Positions 6,283 to 45,479 of a stretch of 64,000 nucleotides of DNA are shown here, piece by piece. Source of the stretch: Alicyclobacillaceae bacterium I2511 (GTDB lineage Bacteria; Bacillota; Bacilli; Alicyclobacillales; Alicyclobacillaceae); contig QXHL01000008.1 in assembly GCA_003584005.1 (NCBI GenBank), positions 1 through 64,000 of the forward strand. The letters are read 5' to 3'. A program made the translations under genes and the position numbers. The notes below the pieces were generated by a model. The model saw only the letters and a program-made list of their open reading frames with translations. It made no database searches and was not told the DNA's origin. Within the stretch, counting starts at the first letter, position 1. Every line of letters starts with the position of its first letter.

Positions 6283-6417
6283 TTATGTTAATTTTTTTGG
6301 TAGTATAAAATAAGTTACAGTATGTGATTTTAAGTGCATCTCTATTAACAAGGCAGTATCTAAAATAACTACAACGGTGATTACTCCAACGACAATATAA
6401 AATATTTTTTTTAACAT
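6283..6417 (-). CDS. 44-residue single-pass membrane peptide
   Basis: ATG at 6417 is preceded by a strong AAGGAGAT ribosome binding site at the right spacing. The product begins MLKKIFYIVVGVITVVVILD, a short basic N-terminus plus one hydrophobic helix, and ends with a polar tail. It lies downstream of the secreted-protein gene on the same strand, beyond the hairpin at 6452-6487. Function unknown; a partner or immunity peptide for the upstream secreted protein is possible but unproven. Confidence 0.5.
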   Translation of the reverse strand: MLKKIFYIVVGVITVVVILDTALLIEMHLKSHTVTYFILPKKLT

Positions 6418-6451
6418 GAACCATATCTCCTTTTTGAATGAACTATACTTT

Positions 6452-6487
6452 GTGGCTGTGACGTCGAGAACCTGACGTCACAGCCAC
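6452..6487 (-). terminator. strong hairpin after the secreted-protein gene
   Basis: A perfect 14-base stem (GTGGCTGTGACGTC / GACGTCACAGCCAC) with an eight-base loop. It has no long U tract on either side, so it could be a terminator or attenuator, or a 3' stabiliser between the secreted protein and the downstream membrane peptide. Confidence 0.55.
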
Positions 6488-6495
6488 TCTAATAT

Positions 6496-7392
6496 TTATC
6501 CTATATTGTAGGCTGCTTCCTCGACAAATTGAGATGTACTATATCCATTAAAACTGGTTACAAGTTGCTCCGTCCATGAAGTTCCTACGTCCTGTACGCC
6601 TAATACGTCTGAGAAAGTTGCCTGATCACTTGAGTATGGTCCCCAATTCCCAAGAATTTGTTTATCACCATTGTAAGTTGCTCCAACCCCAATACCAAAT
6701 GAGCTAGCTCCAGCAGAAACATTATATATATTAATATTATAATGCGTTCCATCACTGGAAATTACAGGATTGAAGTCTGTATACAGATTATTTGTTATCC
6801 ACTCTACGCCAACTGAATCTGTCCATGTATTTGTGTCTTGATAATTATTACCACCTAAATTTACATACGAATCTGGTGAGATAGTTGTAGTACCATTAGA
6901 AGTTGGGCTGGTAGATTGAATAGGTTCAATTGTGTTCGTTCTGGTAATTGTACTACCATCTGGAAACACATACTTAATGGTTACTCCGGCTGGTAATGGA
7001 TTATTTATATCTTTCGGCCAATAGGCTAGATTGTTTGACTCAGCATTTTTAAAGAGATTTTTCGCAAAATCTTTATTTTGTTTAAGATACATTTGAAATT
7101 TTTGCCCACTAACAGAATTAAGGAATTGATTAGTTGTGCCATGAATATTCGCATTAATCAATTCATTAACTAATTTATGCTGCTCAGTTGGGAGACTTGA
7201 AATAAAATTCTCCTCATTGTTGGAAATAGCAGGGTTTTGAGGAGTTGGACTAACTATAACTGTTTTCGAAATTTCTGTTCCAAAATTAAATATTTGATTA
7301 TTAGATGAAGTGGAAGCAGCAAAGACTGTTGGAATCGATACACAAGTAACAAAAAGAGCCGAGGTAGAAATTGCAATTAAATTCCTTTTCAT
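6496..7392 (-). CDS. secreted protein behind a c-di-GMP riboswitch
   Basis: 298 residues with a classical signal peptide (basic MKRN, hydrophobic core, VFA-AST cleavage region near residue 25). The mature part is rich in Asn, Ser, Thr and Gly and contains the segments LGGNNYQDTNTWTDSVGVEW and a GVGATYNGD C-terminal region. No family recognised. A GAGGAGGA ribosome binding site precedes ATG 7392. The long 5' leader (to about 7925) contains a GEMM riboswitch and terminator, so expression should respond to cyclic di-GMP. Confidence 0.75.
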   Translation of the reverse strand: MKRNLIAISTSALFVTCVSIPTVFAASTSSNNQIFNFGTEISKTVIVSPTPQNPAISNNEENFISSLPTEQHKLVNELINANIHGTTNQFLNSVSGQKFQMYLKQNKDFAKNLFKNAESNNLAYWPKDINNPLPAGVTIKYVFPDGSTITRTNTIEPIQSTSPTSNGTTTISPDSYVNLGGNNYQDTNTWTDSVGVEWITNNLYTDFNPVISSDGTHYNINIYNVSAGASSFGIGVGATYNGDKQILGNWGPYSSDQATFSDVLGVQDVGTSWTEQLVTSFNGYSTSQFVEEAAYNIG

Positions 7393-7498
7393 TTAAATAT
7401 CCTCCTCGTATCAAAATAGCAAACAAACCTCATGAGTTTATTTGAGTGAACGGTAAATCACAACCATTAGCAAATAACTCGGTCTATCAGTAAACGCA

Positions 7499-7675
7499 CT
7501 AACGATTTAACTGCCTTTTGGATAGCTGTCTCTGATCACTAATCATCATCACCAGACCTCTGTGATTGCGAGCATTGCCTGTCATAGAACGCATAACGAC
7601 CTGATTGAACATTTGGCAGATCTCGATGTCCTCGTAATCACTCTTCTCAAAGTAAATGATGTTTGTGCTAACGAC
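7499..7675 (-). other. conserved 58-codon open frame inside the riboswitch leader, copy 1
   Basis: Between the leader terminator and the secreted-protein start, a stop-to-stop frame has protein-like composition (SDYEDIEICQMFNQVV..., ending LSKRQLNR). Internal ATGs exist, but no good ribosome binding site precedes them. It is preserved in the second leader copy at 43008-43184. It may be a relic of a gene displaced by leader duplication, or a leader peptide. Confidence 0.3.
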
Positions 7676-7790
7676 TCATTGGACTGACGTCACCCGGAAT
7701 TCACAGCAATCAACAGATTTGTTATGAGAATGCAGCCGTTGCTTAAGAATTGAACGACAAATGATCTTCTAATGGAATTCACCCCTCTCC

Positions 7791-7823
7791 AAAAATCAAA
7801 AATCTGGCCGTATTCCGCCAGAC
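7791..7823 (-). terminator. intrinsic terminator of the GEMM expression platform, copy 1
   Basis: On the minus strand the stem TCTGGCGGAATACGGCCAGA is followed directly by TTTTTGATTTTT. It lies about 20 bases downstream of the aptamer, where an expression platform is expected, and about 400 bases upstream of the secreted-protein start. Confidence 0.8.
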
Positions 7824-7837
7824 TGTACAGATACTCT

Positions 7838-7925
7838 ATCTGCAACCTGGCTGGCGTAGTGCCTATCGCACTGTAGCCCCATGGCTTTGCGTCCCTCAGT
7901 TTCCCGAGGTTTGCCCCTTGTCCCC
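7838..7925 (-). ncRNA. c-di-GMP-I (GEMM-I) riboswitch, copy 1
   Basis: On the minus strand, in order: GGGGCAAACC, a GGGAAACTGAGGGACGCAAAGCC block (tetraloop-bearing first stem then the GACGCAAAGCC ligand core), ATGGGGCTA, a variable stem, and GCCAGCCAGGTTGC closing the tetraloop-receptor helix. These are the conserved elements of the Vc2-type aptamer in the right order and spacing. A terminator follows, so it is a transcriptional switch. A second near-identical copy is at 43347-43434. Confidence 0.85.
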
Positions 7926-8309
7926 GTCTCAACATTCTCTATTTAATGTAATCCTAGTCTCCCACATTCCCTCTTGCAAACACATTCATTCCCTGTGTCG
8001 TTACGGAATTTAGTAGAACTTACTGAGAATCCCGTATTTGCTCTGTTTTATGGAGCTTTTCGTAGCATTTCTCCTTTTTACCACCACTTCACTTTTCTGG
8101 TTAGAAAGACATGGGTCGAAAAGGTCGTCTTCATCAGATTTCTCGCGTCGAACGTCCGGGTCCAAGCACGACATTTTCTGCTGTGCCTAATTGGCCTCTG
8201 GCGGAATATCATAGTTTTCCGGGATAGACACTCATGCCGCTGTTAGCGGCACCAGCTGGGGATGTAAATCCACGAACCTGTATTTACTAGGATGGGATGC
8301 TCAACGTTT
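7926..8309. other. leader promoter region and recJ 3' flank
   Basis: Noncoding. It should contain the minus-strand promoter of the riboswitch transcript. A GCCGCTGTTAGCGGC hairpin at about 8234-8248 probably terminates recJ. The segment is largely repeated at 43435-43752, but the hairpin and roughly 60 surrounding bases are missing from that copy. Confidence 0.4.
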
Positions 8310-10022
8310 TCACCGCCCATCCACCATCCGCAGTTGAACCGTTCGTTCGCCCTTCCACTGGTGGTCCCCCACCGTGACCAGCAGGTGATGTAGCGTCCCT
8401 GTCTGCCATACCTGGCGTTGCTCCCCCTTGCCAAAAGCGAGCACGGGGTAAGTGAAGCCCTGCTCGTTTCTCACCCACACTTTCAAATGCTGGTTCTCTT
8501 TGCCCATCGTCTGCGCCGCTTCCACGGTGACACCTGCGACAAAGAACACCGGCTCTGGGTTCCCGTTCCCGAACGGTTCCAGCTTGGCCAAGTCGTCCAC
8601 CAGTGAAAACGAGAGTTCCCCCAGGTCCAACGGGGCATCGGTGATTCGGTGCGGGTCCAGTTCTACATCCTCAAACCAGTTGCGTTCCACGGCGTACCCA
8701 TAGGATTTCTGCAGGCGGTTGAGGTCTGCCGTCGCCAGGCTGAACCCTGCGGCCGCCTCGTGCCCGCCAAACTTCTCGAACACCCCCGTGCGCTGTGGTA
8801 CGTCCGCCAACGCCCGGTACAAGTCGTACTCCGGAATCGCTCGCCCCGATCCCTTGGCCCGGTCCCCGTCCACCGTCACGCACAGCGTGGATTTCCAGAA
8901 ACGCTCGGTCAGCTTGCCCGCGACAATGCCGATCACGCCCTCGTGCCAGCCTTTTCCCGCCACCACCAGCCCCTTTTTCTCCAGCCAGTTTGGGTGTGCC
9001 TCAATTTGTGTCAGGGCTTCCGTTTCCACCTGGCTCTGCAACGCCTTGCGCCGGTCGTTGTACACGTTCAGTTCACGAGCGATGCTCAAGGCTTCCTGCG
9101 GGTCCTCCGTCAGAAACAGCTCCACCGCCCGCTTCGCATGCGCCAGACGGCCTACCGCGTTGATTCGCGGGGCCAACTGAAACGCCGCCGCCGTGGAGGT
9201 CACGCGTTTTTCAGCCAAGCCCGCGACTGCGATGAGCGCTGCTAGGCCCAGGTTGGGCTCGCTGTTGAGACGTTTGAGGCCCTCTTTGACCAACACCCGG
9301 TTTTCACCAACCAGCGGGACTTGGTCTGCCACTGTGGCCAGAGCCACCAAGTCTAGCAGGTCTTCCGGGAATTCGCCCAGGAGGGCTTGGGCCAGTTTGA
9401 AGGCGACTCCCGCGCCGCACAGGTCGGGAAAACTGTACATTGACCGGGGATAGGCCGGATGGACAAGGGCGACAGCGTTTGGCACCGTTGAGATATGATG
9501 GTGGTCTGTGACAATTAGGTCCACACCCAGGGCTTTGGCGGCGTCTCCCGCTTCCACCGCCGTGATTCCGGTGTCCACGGTGATGAGGAGCTTCACCCCC
9601 TGCTCTGCGGCCGCTTGGACTATTTTGGTGTGCAGGCCATAGCCGTCGGTGAAGCGGGACGGAACGAACCAGGCGGGGTCTGCGCCCAGTTTGCGCAGGG
9701 TCCGGACCAGAATGGCCGTGGCCGCCGTTCCGTCCACATCGTAGTCGCCATAGACCAGGATGGGTTCTTGGGCTTGGATGGCCTGGCGAATGCGGGCCAC
9801 AGCACGGGGCATGTCGTGCATCATCATAGGGTCAATCAAACTGGAGCGATTCGCTTGGAGGAACGCCCCTGCGGACTCGACGCGAGCACAGTTCCGGGTG
9901 GTGAGAATCCGGGCCACCAGGGGATGCAGGTGGAATGTATCGGCCAATATGTGGGCCGCATCTAAATCGGCTTGGCGGCCGATCCATTTGTATTTGATGG
10001 GAAACACTGTGGTCTGAGTCAA
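8310..10022 (-). CDS. recJ: RecJ-like single-stranded-DNA exonuclease
   Basis: DHH-family 5'-3' ssDNA exonuclease used in recombination and repair. Seen: VYGDYDVDGTAATAILVR (motif I), LITVDTGI, VTDHHHIS (DHH motif), HPAYP and the C-terminal DHHA1/OB-like part (GSGRAIPEYDLYRAL, FGGHEAAAGFSL). I choose the TTG at 10022 (AGAGGGGG eight to nine bases upstream) over an upstream ATG at 10103; this gives 570 residues, near the E. coli length and shorter than many Bacillota RecJ proteins. Intact, with all catalytic motifs. A broken second copy is at 43753-45479. Confidence 0.85.
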   Translation of the reverse strand: MTQTTVFPIKYKWIGRQADLDAAHILADTFHLHPLVARILTTRNCARVESAGAFLQANRSSLIDPMMMHDMPRAVARIRQAIQAQEPILVYGDYDVDGTAATAILVRTLRKLGADPAWFVPSRFTDGYGLHTKIVQAAAEQGVKLLITVDTGITAVEAGDAAKALGVDLIVTDHHHISTVPNAVALVHPAYPRSMYSFPDLCGAGVAFKLAQALLGEFPEDLLDLVALATVADQVPLVGENRVLVKEGLKRLNSEPNLGLAALIAVAGLAEKRVTSTAAAFQLAPRINAVGRLAHAKRAVELFLTEDPQEALSIARELNVYNDRRKALQSQVETEALTQIEAHPNWLEKKGLVVAGKGWHEGVIGIVAGKLTERFWKSTLCVTVDGDRAKGSGRAIPEYDLYRALADVPQRTGVFEKFGGHEAAAGFSLATADLNRLQKSYGYAVERNWFEDVELDPHRITDAPLDLGELSFSLVDDLAKLEPFGNGNPEPVFFVAGVTVEAAQTMGKENQHLKVWVRNEQGFTYPVLAFGKGEQRQVWQTGTLHHLLVTVGDHQWKGERTVQLRMVDGR

Positions 10023-10128
10023 CGGAAACGCCCCCTCTGGGAATATTGTAGCGCGTGGGGAGGGGGGCGTGGGGGAAACGAGGGCATTGTGCGAGTGGAG
10101 CACGTCACGTGACCTTGGTGAGTTGCGT

Positions 10129-39867: not shown

Positions 39868-39893
39868 GCCGTCTGATTGACGGGCAGTCAGGC
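39868..39893 (-). terminator. hairpin downstream of the GEMM-like RNA
   Basis: GCCTGACTG-CCCGT-CAATCAGACGGC forms an imperfect stem, followed on the minus strand by GTGTTCTTCTCTC, a weak U-rich stretch. It sits between the aptamer-like element and the winged-helix gene. Confidence 0.4.
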
Positions 39894-39898
39894 TATCT

Positions 39899-39969
39899 GG
39901 TCCCGACGCGCGTCAGGACGGAAGACCCTATGACTTTGCGACCCCGGCTTCCGCGCGGGTGTGCACATG
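39899..39969 (-). ncRNA. candidate variant c-di-GMP-I (GEMM) riboswitch
   Basis: On the minus strand: GTGCACACC, then GGGGTCGCAAAGTCATAGGG (compare GGGACGCAAAGCCATGGGG of the confident copies), then TCTTCCGTCCTGACGCGCGT and CGGGACC. The order of core, short stem and closing helix fits GEMM, but several conserved bases differ (TCGCAAAGTC instead of ACGCAAAGCC) and the 5' GGGCAAACC is poor. It could be a ligand-shifted or decayed variant. Confidence 0.4.
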
Positions 39970-40184
39970 TTAAATGTTGGTAATGATATAACGCTGATAA
40001 AGACGGACAAGTTACGGCAGAACGATAAGAGCCTGACCAATACCGAAAAGCATGAAATGCTATCATGAAAGCACAGCCCGTTTGCAGAGTGATCAACACG
40101 GTCGGGTGCTTCAACACACCGTCGACGATATCGCCATTTCAACAGAACATTGATGGATGAACAACCGGCTAAGGAGAGCCTGTT

Positions 40185-41849: not shown

Positions 41850-42905
41850 TCAGCCTACCGGGTCGATATTCCCATAATTTTTCCAATAATCGGTAAAAGA
41901 ATTCACCGTAGTTAAAGGATTATTCGCTGAAGCCATTGTTAATCCATCTTCACTCATAGTAAGTTCATTATTTGGCCAATCTCCAATGGCGAATGGGCCC
42001 GGTTCTGTAACTGAACCCGCAGCCGCACTTGTAAACACTTCGCTACCAAAATCCGTGAGGTGAGGATAACTATTATTTTCTTCTGTACGTTCAACAATCC
42101 ATTCAGCCGTACTGCCATTATAGTCACTGGAATCCCCGGAGTCGGAAAAACTTACAGCAACATTTGTTGTTTCATCTACCAAGTAGAAGTAAGCTGTACT
42201 ATTCGAATAACTGACGTCCGCATACATTTTATCTCCGGCTGAAATCACCATATTGGTTAAATCTTGTTGGTAAGGATACTTGGGAAGTATTTCAAACCAC
42301 GGATAGTAATTAGGAAACATGACATACGTCCTTAGAGTTATTGTCAGATCAGCTTCAGTACCCATTTGGATTAAATCGGGGTTACCGTTTCCCCCGATGC
42401 CAACCCAAGTGCAAGAATATTGATAATTCGGTCCACCAGGACCACCAGTAGTGGCATTTGGAACAGTCCACGTAGCTCTTACATCCGTATATCCATTATA
42501 ATTATATCCATTATACGCATAATAACCTGACCAATTATGAGATGAGGCTGAACCGCTTGCTGTACTTTGGTTTGTGGTATAGTGGTGGGTACTGATGACA
42601 CTCTTAAAGGTAGGAATAATGAAACGTTTGGAATGCTCCATAGCAGTTTTCCAAGCAGATAACAGTGAAGGGTTTGTCGGTTTTGTAGGAAAACCGTGCG
42701 CTTTGAGCTCACCGTTTGTTGCAGTAAGAGGATTAAAACCACTTGATGGAATATGCACGGCTACCCCAAGTTGTTGTGCTGTTTCTGTCGTAGCAGATGA
42801 AGTATTAGCAGACAATGTACTAGCAGACGCCGTGTTACCATATGTTGTCTCACATAATAGCGTGGTCATACCAATCGCAGTCATCAATAAAATTTTCTTC
42901 ATCAT
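41850..42905 (-). CDS. secreted G1-family (eqolisin) glutamic peptidase
   Basis: 351 residues. Signal peptide (1-25), propeptide to about 120, then the eqolisin beta-sandwich: HNWSGYYAY (123-131), ATWTVPN (144-150), CTWVGIGG (165-172), LIQMG with candidate catalytic Gln180, WFEILP (203-208) and AEWIVER with candidate catalytic Glu268. G1 peptidases use a Gln/Glu pair and work at acid pH, fitting an acidophile. Transcription starts behind a c-di-GMP riboswitch leader shared with the unrelated secreted protein at 6496-7392. Confidence 0.85.
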   Translation of the reverse strand: MMKKILLMTAIGMTTLLCETTYGNTASASTLSANTSSATTETAQQLGVAVHIPSSGFNPLTATNGELKAHGFPTKPTNPSLLSAWKTAMEHSKRFIIPTFKSVISTHHYTTNQSTASGSASSHNWSGYYAYNGYNYNGYTDVRATWTVPNATTGGPGGPNYQYSCTWVGIGGNGNPDLIQMGTEADLTITLRTYVMFPNYYPWFEILPKYPYQQDLTNMVISAGDKMYADVSYSNSTAYFYLVDETTNVAVSFSDSGDSSDYNGSTAEWIVERTEENNSYPHLTDFGSEVFTSAAAGSVTEPGPFAIGDWPNNELTMSEDGLTMASANNPLTTVNSFTDYWKNYGNIDPVG

Positions 42906-43007
42906 TTACCACTCCTCATATAAAAATAACAAACAAGCCCCCGAAGTTTTTTTAGTGAACGGTAAATCACAACCATTAGCAAATAACTCGGTCTATCAGT
43001 AAACGCA

Positions 43008-43184
43008 CTAACGATTTAACTGCCTTTTGGATAGCTGTCTCTGATCACTAATCATCATCACCAGACCTCTGTGATTGCGAGCATTGCCTGTCATAGAACG
43101 CATAACGACCTGATTGAACATTTGGCAGATCTCGATGTCCTCGTAATCACTCTTCTCAAAGTAAATGATGTTTGTGCTAACGAC
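43008..43184 (-). other. conserved 58-codon open frame inside the riboswitch leader, copy 2
   Basis: Same frame as 7499-7675, with the stop preserved. It lies between the leader terminator and the peptidase start. Confidence 0.3.
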
Positions 43185-43299
43185 TCATTGGACTGACGTC
43201 ACCCGGAATTCACAGCAATCAACAGATTTGTTATGAGAATGCAGCCGTTGCTTAAGAATTGAACGACAAATGATCTTCTTATGGAATTCACCCCTCTCC

Positions 43300-43332
43300 A
43301 AAAATTAAAAATCTGGCCGTATTCCGCCAGAC
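43300..43332 (-). terminator. intrinsic terminator of the GEMM expression platform, copy 2
   Basis: Identical stem to copy 1 (TCTGGCGGAATACGGCCAGA) followed by TTTTTAATTTTT on the minus strand. Confidence 0.8.
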
Positions 43333-43346
43333 TGTACAGATACTCT

Positions 43347-43434
43347 ATCTGCAACCTGGCTGGCGTAGTGCCTATCGCACTGTAGCCCCATGGCTTTGCG
43401 TCCCTCAGTTTCCCGAGGTTTGCCCCTTGTCCCC
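43347..43434 (-). ncRNA. c-di-GMP-I (GEMM-I) riboswitch, copy 2
   Basis: Same conserved elements as copy 1, including GGGGCAAACC, GGGACGCAAAGCC and GCCAGCCAGGTTGC, with no visible change in the aptamer. It controls the acid peptidase gene. Confidence 0.85.
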
Positions 43435-43752
43435 GTCTCAACATTCTTTATTTAATGTAACCCTATTCTACCAAATCTCCTCTTGCAAACACATTCATTC
43501 CCTGTGTCGTTACTGAATTTACCGAAACATACTAAAAATCCCGGAGTTGCTCTGTTTTATGGTGTTTTTCTCGAAATCCCTCTTTTTACTACAATATCTC
43601 TTTCCAGACTAGAACAACATGGGTCGACAAGATCATTTTAATCAAATTTCTCGCGTCGGACGCCGGGTCCAAACGCGACATTCTCCGCTGGGCCAGAGTG
43701 TCCTCTGGTGGAATGTCGTAGCTTTCCGGGATACAGAGGAGGCTCAACGTTT

Positions 43753-45479
43753 TCACCGCCCATCCACCATCCGCAGTTGAATCGTCCGTTCGCCCTTCCA
43801 TTGATGGTCCCCCACCGTGACCAGCAGGTGATGTAGCGTCCCTGTCTGCCAAGCAGGGCGTTGCTCCCCCTTCCCAAAAGCGAGCACGGGGTAGGTGAAG
43901 CCCTGCTCGTTTTTCACCCACACTTTCAAGTGCTGGTTCTCTTTGCCCATCGTCTGCGCCGCTTCCACGGTGACGCCTGCGACAAAGAACACCGGTTCCG
44001 GGTTCCCGTTCCCGAACGGTTCCAGCTTGGCCAAGTCGTCCACCAGCGAAAACGAGAGTTCCCCCAGGTCCAACGGGGCATCGGTGATCCGGTGCGGGTC
44101 CAGTTCCACGTCCTCAAACCAGTTGCGTTCCACGGCGTACCCGTAGGACTTCTGCAGGCGGTTGAGGTCCGCTGTCGCCAGGCTAAACCCTGCAGCCGCC
44201 TCGTGCCCGCCAAACTTTTCGAACACCCCTGTGCGCTGTGGTACGTCCGCCAACGCCCGGTACAAGTCGTACTCCGGAATCGCTCGGCCCGATCCTTTCG
44301 CTCGGTCCCCGTCCACCGTCACACACAGGGTGGATTTCCAGAAACGCTCGGTCAGCTTGCCAGCGACAATGCCGATCACGCCCTCGTGCCAGCCGCTTCC
44401 CGCCACCACCAGCCCTTTTTTCCCAGCCATTTCGGGTGCGCCTCAATTTGTGCCAGGGCTTCCGCTTCCACCTGACTCTGCAACGCCTTGCGTCGGTCGT
44501 TGTACACGTTCAGTTCACGAGCGATGCTCAAGGCTTCCTGCGGGTCCTCCGTCAGAAACAGCTCCACCGCCCGCTTCGCATGGGCCAGACGGCCTACCGC
44601 GTTGATTCGCGGGGCCAACTGAAACGCCGCCGCCGTGGAGGTCACGCGTTTTTCAGCCAAGCCAGCGACTGCGATGAGCGCTTCTAGGCCCAGGTTGGGC
44701 TCACTGTTGAGACGTTTGAGACCCTCCTTGACCAACACCCGGTTTTCGCCAACCAGCGGGACTTGGTCTGCCACCGTGGCCAGAGCCACCAAGTCTAGCA
44801 GGTCTTCCGGGAATTCGCCCAGGAGGGCTTGGGCCAGCTTGAAGACGACTCCCGCGCCGCACAGGTCGTGAAAACTGTACATTGACCGTGGATAGGCCGG
44901 ATGGACAAGGGCGACAGCGTCTGGCACCGTTGAGATATGATGGTGGTCTGTGACAATCAGGTCCACCCCCAGGGCTTTGGCGGCCTCTCCCGCTTCCACC
45001 GCCGTGATTCCGGTGTCCACGGTGATGAGCAGTTTCACCCCCTGTTCTGCGGCCGCTTGGACTATGTTGGTGTGCAGGCCATAGCCGTCCGTGAACCGGG
45101 ACGGGATGAACCAGGCGGGGTCCGCGCCCAGTTTGCGCAGGGTCCGGACCAGAATGGCCGTGGCCGCCGTTCCGTCCACATCGTAGTCGCCATAGACCAG
45201 GATGGGTTCTTGGGCTTGAATGGCCTGGCGAATGCGGGCTACAGCACGGGGCATGTCGTGCATCAGCATGGGGTCAATGAGGCTGGAGCGAACCGCTTGG
45301 AGGAACGCCTCTGCGGACTCGACGCGAGCACAGTGGCGCGTGGTGAGAATCCGGGCCACCAGAGGATGCAGGTGGAACGCATCGGCCAGCGTGCGGGCCG
45401 CATCTAAATCGGCTTGGCGGCCGATCTATTTGTATTTGATGGTAGATAGTGTAGTCGGAGTCAACAGCAACGCCCCCTC
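43753..45479 (-). pseudogene. recJ: second copy of recJ, broken
   Basis: Closely matches 8310-10022. Two lesions are visible: a one-base deletion near 44424 in a poly-purine run (HPNWLEKKGLVV becomes HPKWLGKKGWWW), and a TGG-to-TAG change at 45426-45428 in the N-terminal KYKWIGRQ. The catalytic motifs in between are still readable, so decay is recent. Confidence 0.85.

Follow-up and report, generated by a model that had tools for sequence, protein, structure and literature searches.

We analysed a 64,000-nt window of the genome of Alicyclobacillaceae bacterium I2511 and found that a riboswitch and leader on the minus strand upstream of a predicted secreted-protein gene (gene A) have a near-perfect twin 35 kb away. 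The leader is long but not unique, and the twin cassette is more interesting than the riboswitch itself. On balance, we think it probable that the element is a class-I c-di-GMP riboswitch that switches expression off by termination, that the extra leader behind it is a passive spacer private to the species, and that the identity of the twins arose by gene conversion.

The conserved GEMM-I elements that a preliminary description had read in order on the minus strand were confirmed by the covariance-model scan that it had proposed. The c-di-GMP-I (GEMM-I, RF01051) aptamer of copy A, located at 7838–7925 (minus strand), scored 77.1 bits (E 2.1e-13), well over the gathering score of 35, and matched the model over its full length (positions 1–87 of 87). 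In the alignment, the GNRA-type tetraloop of P2 and the conserved internal stretches were present, with GGCAAACC, GAAA and GGGACGCAAA in register with RF01051. The intrinsic terminator claimed to lie 3' of the aptamer was found by a consensus scan at 7791–7824 (minus strand), as a stem at 7824–7801 followed by the U-rich tail TTTGATTTTT. The fold of the full-length RNA of copy A contained P2 and P3 of the aptamer along with the terminator hairpin and a further small hairpin. Copy A is a complete c-di-GMP-I aptamer with a terminator, a genuine but ordinary riboswitch, and its match to the family suggests that it binds c-di-GMP. The host genome has eight RF01051 matches. Since at least 40 of the 41 genomes of the family carry at least one (among the matches listed), the aptamer as such is ordinary in this family.

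The preliminary description had overlooked the twin, an aptamer with the same score (copy B, 43347–43434, minus strand, RF01051, 77.1 bits) and its leader. Sequence comparison delimited a shared tract on the minus strand, at 7445–7938 in copy A and 42954–43447 in copy B, with only 2 differences in 494 positions (7938–7445 vs. 43447–42954); within the leader part at 7451–7790, 339 of 340 positions were identical. The 2 differences speak against the duplication of a single sequence in assembly and in favour of two genuine copies. The surroundings of the tract had diverged: the identity of the two copies was 77.6–82.7% in the upstream intergenic DNA and 77.8% in the 58 nt directly preceding the start codons. 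Copy A is preceded by recJ (8310–10103, minus strand; TIGR00644 above cut-off) and copy B by a second, frame-broken recJ copy in two overlapping frames (43753–45359, minus strand), the two being 92.1% and 94.9% identical in their halves and about 93% overall. At a divergence of 7 to 20%, the tract would be expected to hold 35 to 99 differences, and the probability of 2 or fewer is below 1e-12 by a simple binomial. The simplest and most likely account is that the tract was copied recently, by gene conversion within an older duplication that would have included recJ and the leader. The alternative is a strong constraint on the spacer, which also predicts near-perfect identity over the 340 nt of leader in this comparison within one genome. 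No Rfam match was found at L139 and L140, the two closest of the 80 recJ-relative loci kept.

The extra leader of copy A occupies the stretch from terminator to start codon (7393–7790, minus strand). From the end of the tail at 7791 to the ATG at 7392 there are 398 nt, in agreement with the roughly 400 bases given in the preliminary description. Its view that the leader is unusually long held only in part. The distance from aptamer to start codon is 445 nt in copy A and 441 nt in copy B, compared with a median of 103.5 nt for 74 family riboswitches among the matches listed, where individual distances are approximate because start codons were picked by a simple ribosome-site rule. However, 7 of these 74, copies A and B included, have a distance of at least 430 nt, which places the window's copies in the upper tenth. 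This survey dropped L039 (near a contig edge) and L058 and L061 (loci shorter than the standard layout), and the distance of L105 is 27 nt too short because the contig end cuts the locus.

It had also been stated that the aptamer does not account for the long leader; this proved correct, and we found no second element in the leader. The extra leader folded no better than chance (z +1.70; 97 of 100 shuffles folded equally well or better) and gave only chance-level Rfam matches, and a structured RNA was rejected on these grounds. An invertible DNA switch was likewise rejected, since the inverted repeats were no better than those of shuffled sequence: the best exact-type repeat was 7 bp, a score attained by 196 of 200 shuffles, and 12-nt pairs matched at 83% only. 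The longest open frame had 58 codons, which 280 of 500 shuffles equalled, and no read-through frame had a Pfam match within the cut-off, leaving a hidden gene on either strand unsupported. The candidate mobile or phage origin found no match either, with 376 leader bases compared with plasmid and phage collections and a leader 26-mer compared with viral contigs; nor did a 22-mer match the genome contigs (the last two being exact-match searches). The extra leader was absent from the other 40 family genomes searched. Given this absence, and given that repeats, fold, Rfam matches and frames did not exceed chance, the best reading of the extra leader is a passive spacer, perhaps debris.

Debris of a decayed gene or insertion that came to separate the secreted-protein genes from an older riboswitch is an origin compatible with a passive spacer, and we regard it as possible, though short of probable. 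It would fit the recurrence of 129 nt of the leader, at 95% identity, at C148:20319–20447 (L011 1501–1629) without an aptamer; this piece sits among gene fragments and follows a short frame that opens with a start codon and stops early. The decayed-gene origin is opposed by the lack of a Pfam match within the cut-off for the read-through frames and by open-frame lengths no greater than chance. In addition, a search at the protein level through 299 genomes of the class found no relative outside the window's own genome. The piece at L011 was also considered as a further riboswitch locus and rejected, the aptamer being absent from that contig.

We next consider the spacer as a second regulatory layer that acts after read-through and that selection keeps identical in both copies; it might be, for example, an invertible switch, a small ORF in the leader or a region bound by a protein or an sRNA. 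A precedent is the flgB leader of Clostridioides difficile, in which, according to the available part of PMC5386303, 338 nt separate the Cd1 termination site from the start codon and house a 154-bp invertible switch. The flgB/Cd1 system resembles copy A in its long leader after the terminator and shares the OFF logic predicted for copy A, but it controls flagella, and its invertible element is bounded by 21-bp inverted repeats (available part of PMC5386303), none of which were detected in the leader of copy A. The single difference in 340 leader positions between copies with diverged flanks would also suit such a layer. Against it stand the shuffles that match the best inverted repeat, a leader fold and open frames that lie within chance, and the lack of the leader in the other 40 genomes. 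We therefore judge a second layer unlikely and retain the passive spacer.

The direction of the switch was approached by folding the RNA of copy A in prefixes counted from the aptamer start. The expression platform consists of the terminator (7824–7801) and an alternative pairing with the 3' strand of the aptamer. In RNAs of 110–122 nt, the minimum-energy fold was an antiterminator, in which the aptamer 3' strand at 7854–7846 quits P3 and pairs with TCTGGCGG (7822–7815) in the terminator 5' arm; this fold was better than the aptamer-enforced fold by 3.6–4.0 kcal/mol. From 125 nt onward, the terminator together with an intact aptamer became the minimum-energy fold. The two sides of the antiterminator map to 7843–7854 and 7815–7825 (minus strand), and the terminator 5' arm and aptamer 3' strand form a 9-pair run (GCCAGGTTG/CAGTCTGGC); among 200 shuffles, 1% reached this run for copy A and 0% for copy B. 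A stricter test was weak: when the 36 nt downstream were shuffled, 45 of 300 sequences attained the same energy gap. Among the 74 family riboswitches listed, a terminator was found in 48 and not found in 26; a pair run of at least 6 was present in 30 of the 48, and the shuffle frequency was 0.05 or less in 9 of the 48. The recurrence of this complementarity in the family fits an OFF design like that of C. difficile Cd1.

These pairings suggest the following model. In the absence of ligand, the 5' arm of the terminator, once transcribed, would pair with the aptamer 3' strand, polymerase would read through, and the secreted protein of gene A would be produced. With c-di-GMP, the aptamer would be locked, the terminator hairpin would form, and transcription would halt about 400 nt 5' of gene A. 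The anatomy of copy A favours a transcriptional OFF switch, a direction predicted from alternative pairings on paper. Some c-di-GMP-I riboswitches are ON switches, and the reverse arrangement, in which c-di-GMP prevents termination, has that in its favour. However, the sole strong alternative partner that we found for the terminator 5' arm is the aptamer's own 3' strand, so that a ligand-stabilised aptamer would free the terminator; we consider an ON switch doubtful.

No sigma-70-like promoter was found in the leader or upstream of the aptamer in a scan for sites of this type on the minus strand at 6699–8400. The missing recognised promoter upstream of the aptamer counts against the OFF-switch model. 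It might be argued that the riboswitch is uncoupled from gene A, with a promoter within the leader driving the gene and the aptamer yielding only a short terminated RNA. The 398 nt would accommodate a promoter, and Bc1 of Bacillus thuringiensis, which belongs to the same c-di-GMP-I class and has a long expression platform too, shows no net response in the available part of PMC11218506. Bc1 differs in having two terminators 28 bp apart (same source), whereas the strand of copy A had one terminator in the scan of 6300–8400. The same promoter scan, limited to sigma-70-like sites, argues against uncoupling, which we hold to be improbable. Very unlikely, in our opinion, is a portable control cassette in which the 494 nt of riboswitch and leader were copied whole onto different secreted-protein genes and the 400 nt after the terminator are functional and hence invariant.

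Gene A (6496–7392, minus strand, ATG at 7392) encodes an orphan protein of 298 aa without a match in Pfam, NCBIfam, PDB sequences, plasmids or the other 40 family genomes. Its structure predicted without an alignment was unusable (mean pLDDT 33.7). A hairpin of 15 pairs directly 3' of gene A (6452–6487, strand unassigned) was picked up by the consensus scan and is a probable terminator. Behind copy B lies gene B (41850–42905, minus strand), whose 351-aa product was placed by profile score in Peptidase_A4 (eqolisin-type, PF01828; 102.9 bits against a gathering score of 22.3, E 2.1e-29) and distantly resembles aspergillopepsin II (E 1.4e-8). Both products have a basic start followed by a hydrophobic stretch, weaker in B, from which secretion is predicted. 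It is natural to suppose that the predicted secreted protein of gene A would be linked to c-di-GMP. As the module of copy A also precedes the A4/G1 protease-like gene B, 35 kb off, both products would be expected at low c-di-GMP.

We know of no twin leader at ppep-1/zmpI (CD2830) of C. difficile. That locus resembles gene B in carrying a class-I riboswitch before a secreted protease that is on at low c-di-GMP, but the protease is a metalloprotease rather than an A4-type enzyme, according to the available part of PMC11477304. In the open-access literature, we found no paper on a c-di-GMP-I riboswitch in Alicyclobacillus; a wider search that combined these subjects with glutamic peptidases brought up a single paper, unrelated by its title and abstract. 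None of the 29 A4 loci scanned in relatives had a c-di-GMP-I riboswitch upstream of the peptidase gene, so the protease pairing is not conserved, and a conserved association between this riboswitch and A4 proteases was rejected. The sole c-di-GMP-I match at these loci (L079, 2314–2415) is located behind the A4 match. In two relatives, the A4-peptidase match is followed by a ZMP/ZTP riboswitch (L080 2545–2625 and L098 2440–2520). Over most of the first ORFs downstream of the 74 family riboswitches (among the matches listed), the Pfam domains were EAL (18), HAMP (8), Spo0E-like (7) and MCP signalling (6); Peptidase_A4 occurred once, in what its E-value identifies as the window's gene B.

Two other features of the window were recorded. 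A weak third c-di-GMP-I match at 39880–39975 (minus strand; 39.9 bits against the threshold of 35, GAAA loop missing), which the preliminary description had overlooked as well, lies 62 nt 5' of a 114-aa ORF with a lone Trans_reg_C winged-helix domain. Parts of a group II intron (RF00029, RF02012; 14810–17298, minus strand) flank a reverse-transcriptase-like ORF that continues into a transposase-like frame, as judged by eye.

The near-perfect twin with diverged flanks lends itself well to the question of whether gene conversion spreads riboswitch leaders. In this one organism, c-di-GMP would be tied to an orphan predicted secreted protein and to a protease-like gene of A4 type, whereas EAL is the commonest Pfam domain behind the family riboswitches among the matches listed (18 of 74).
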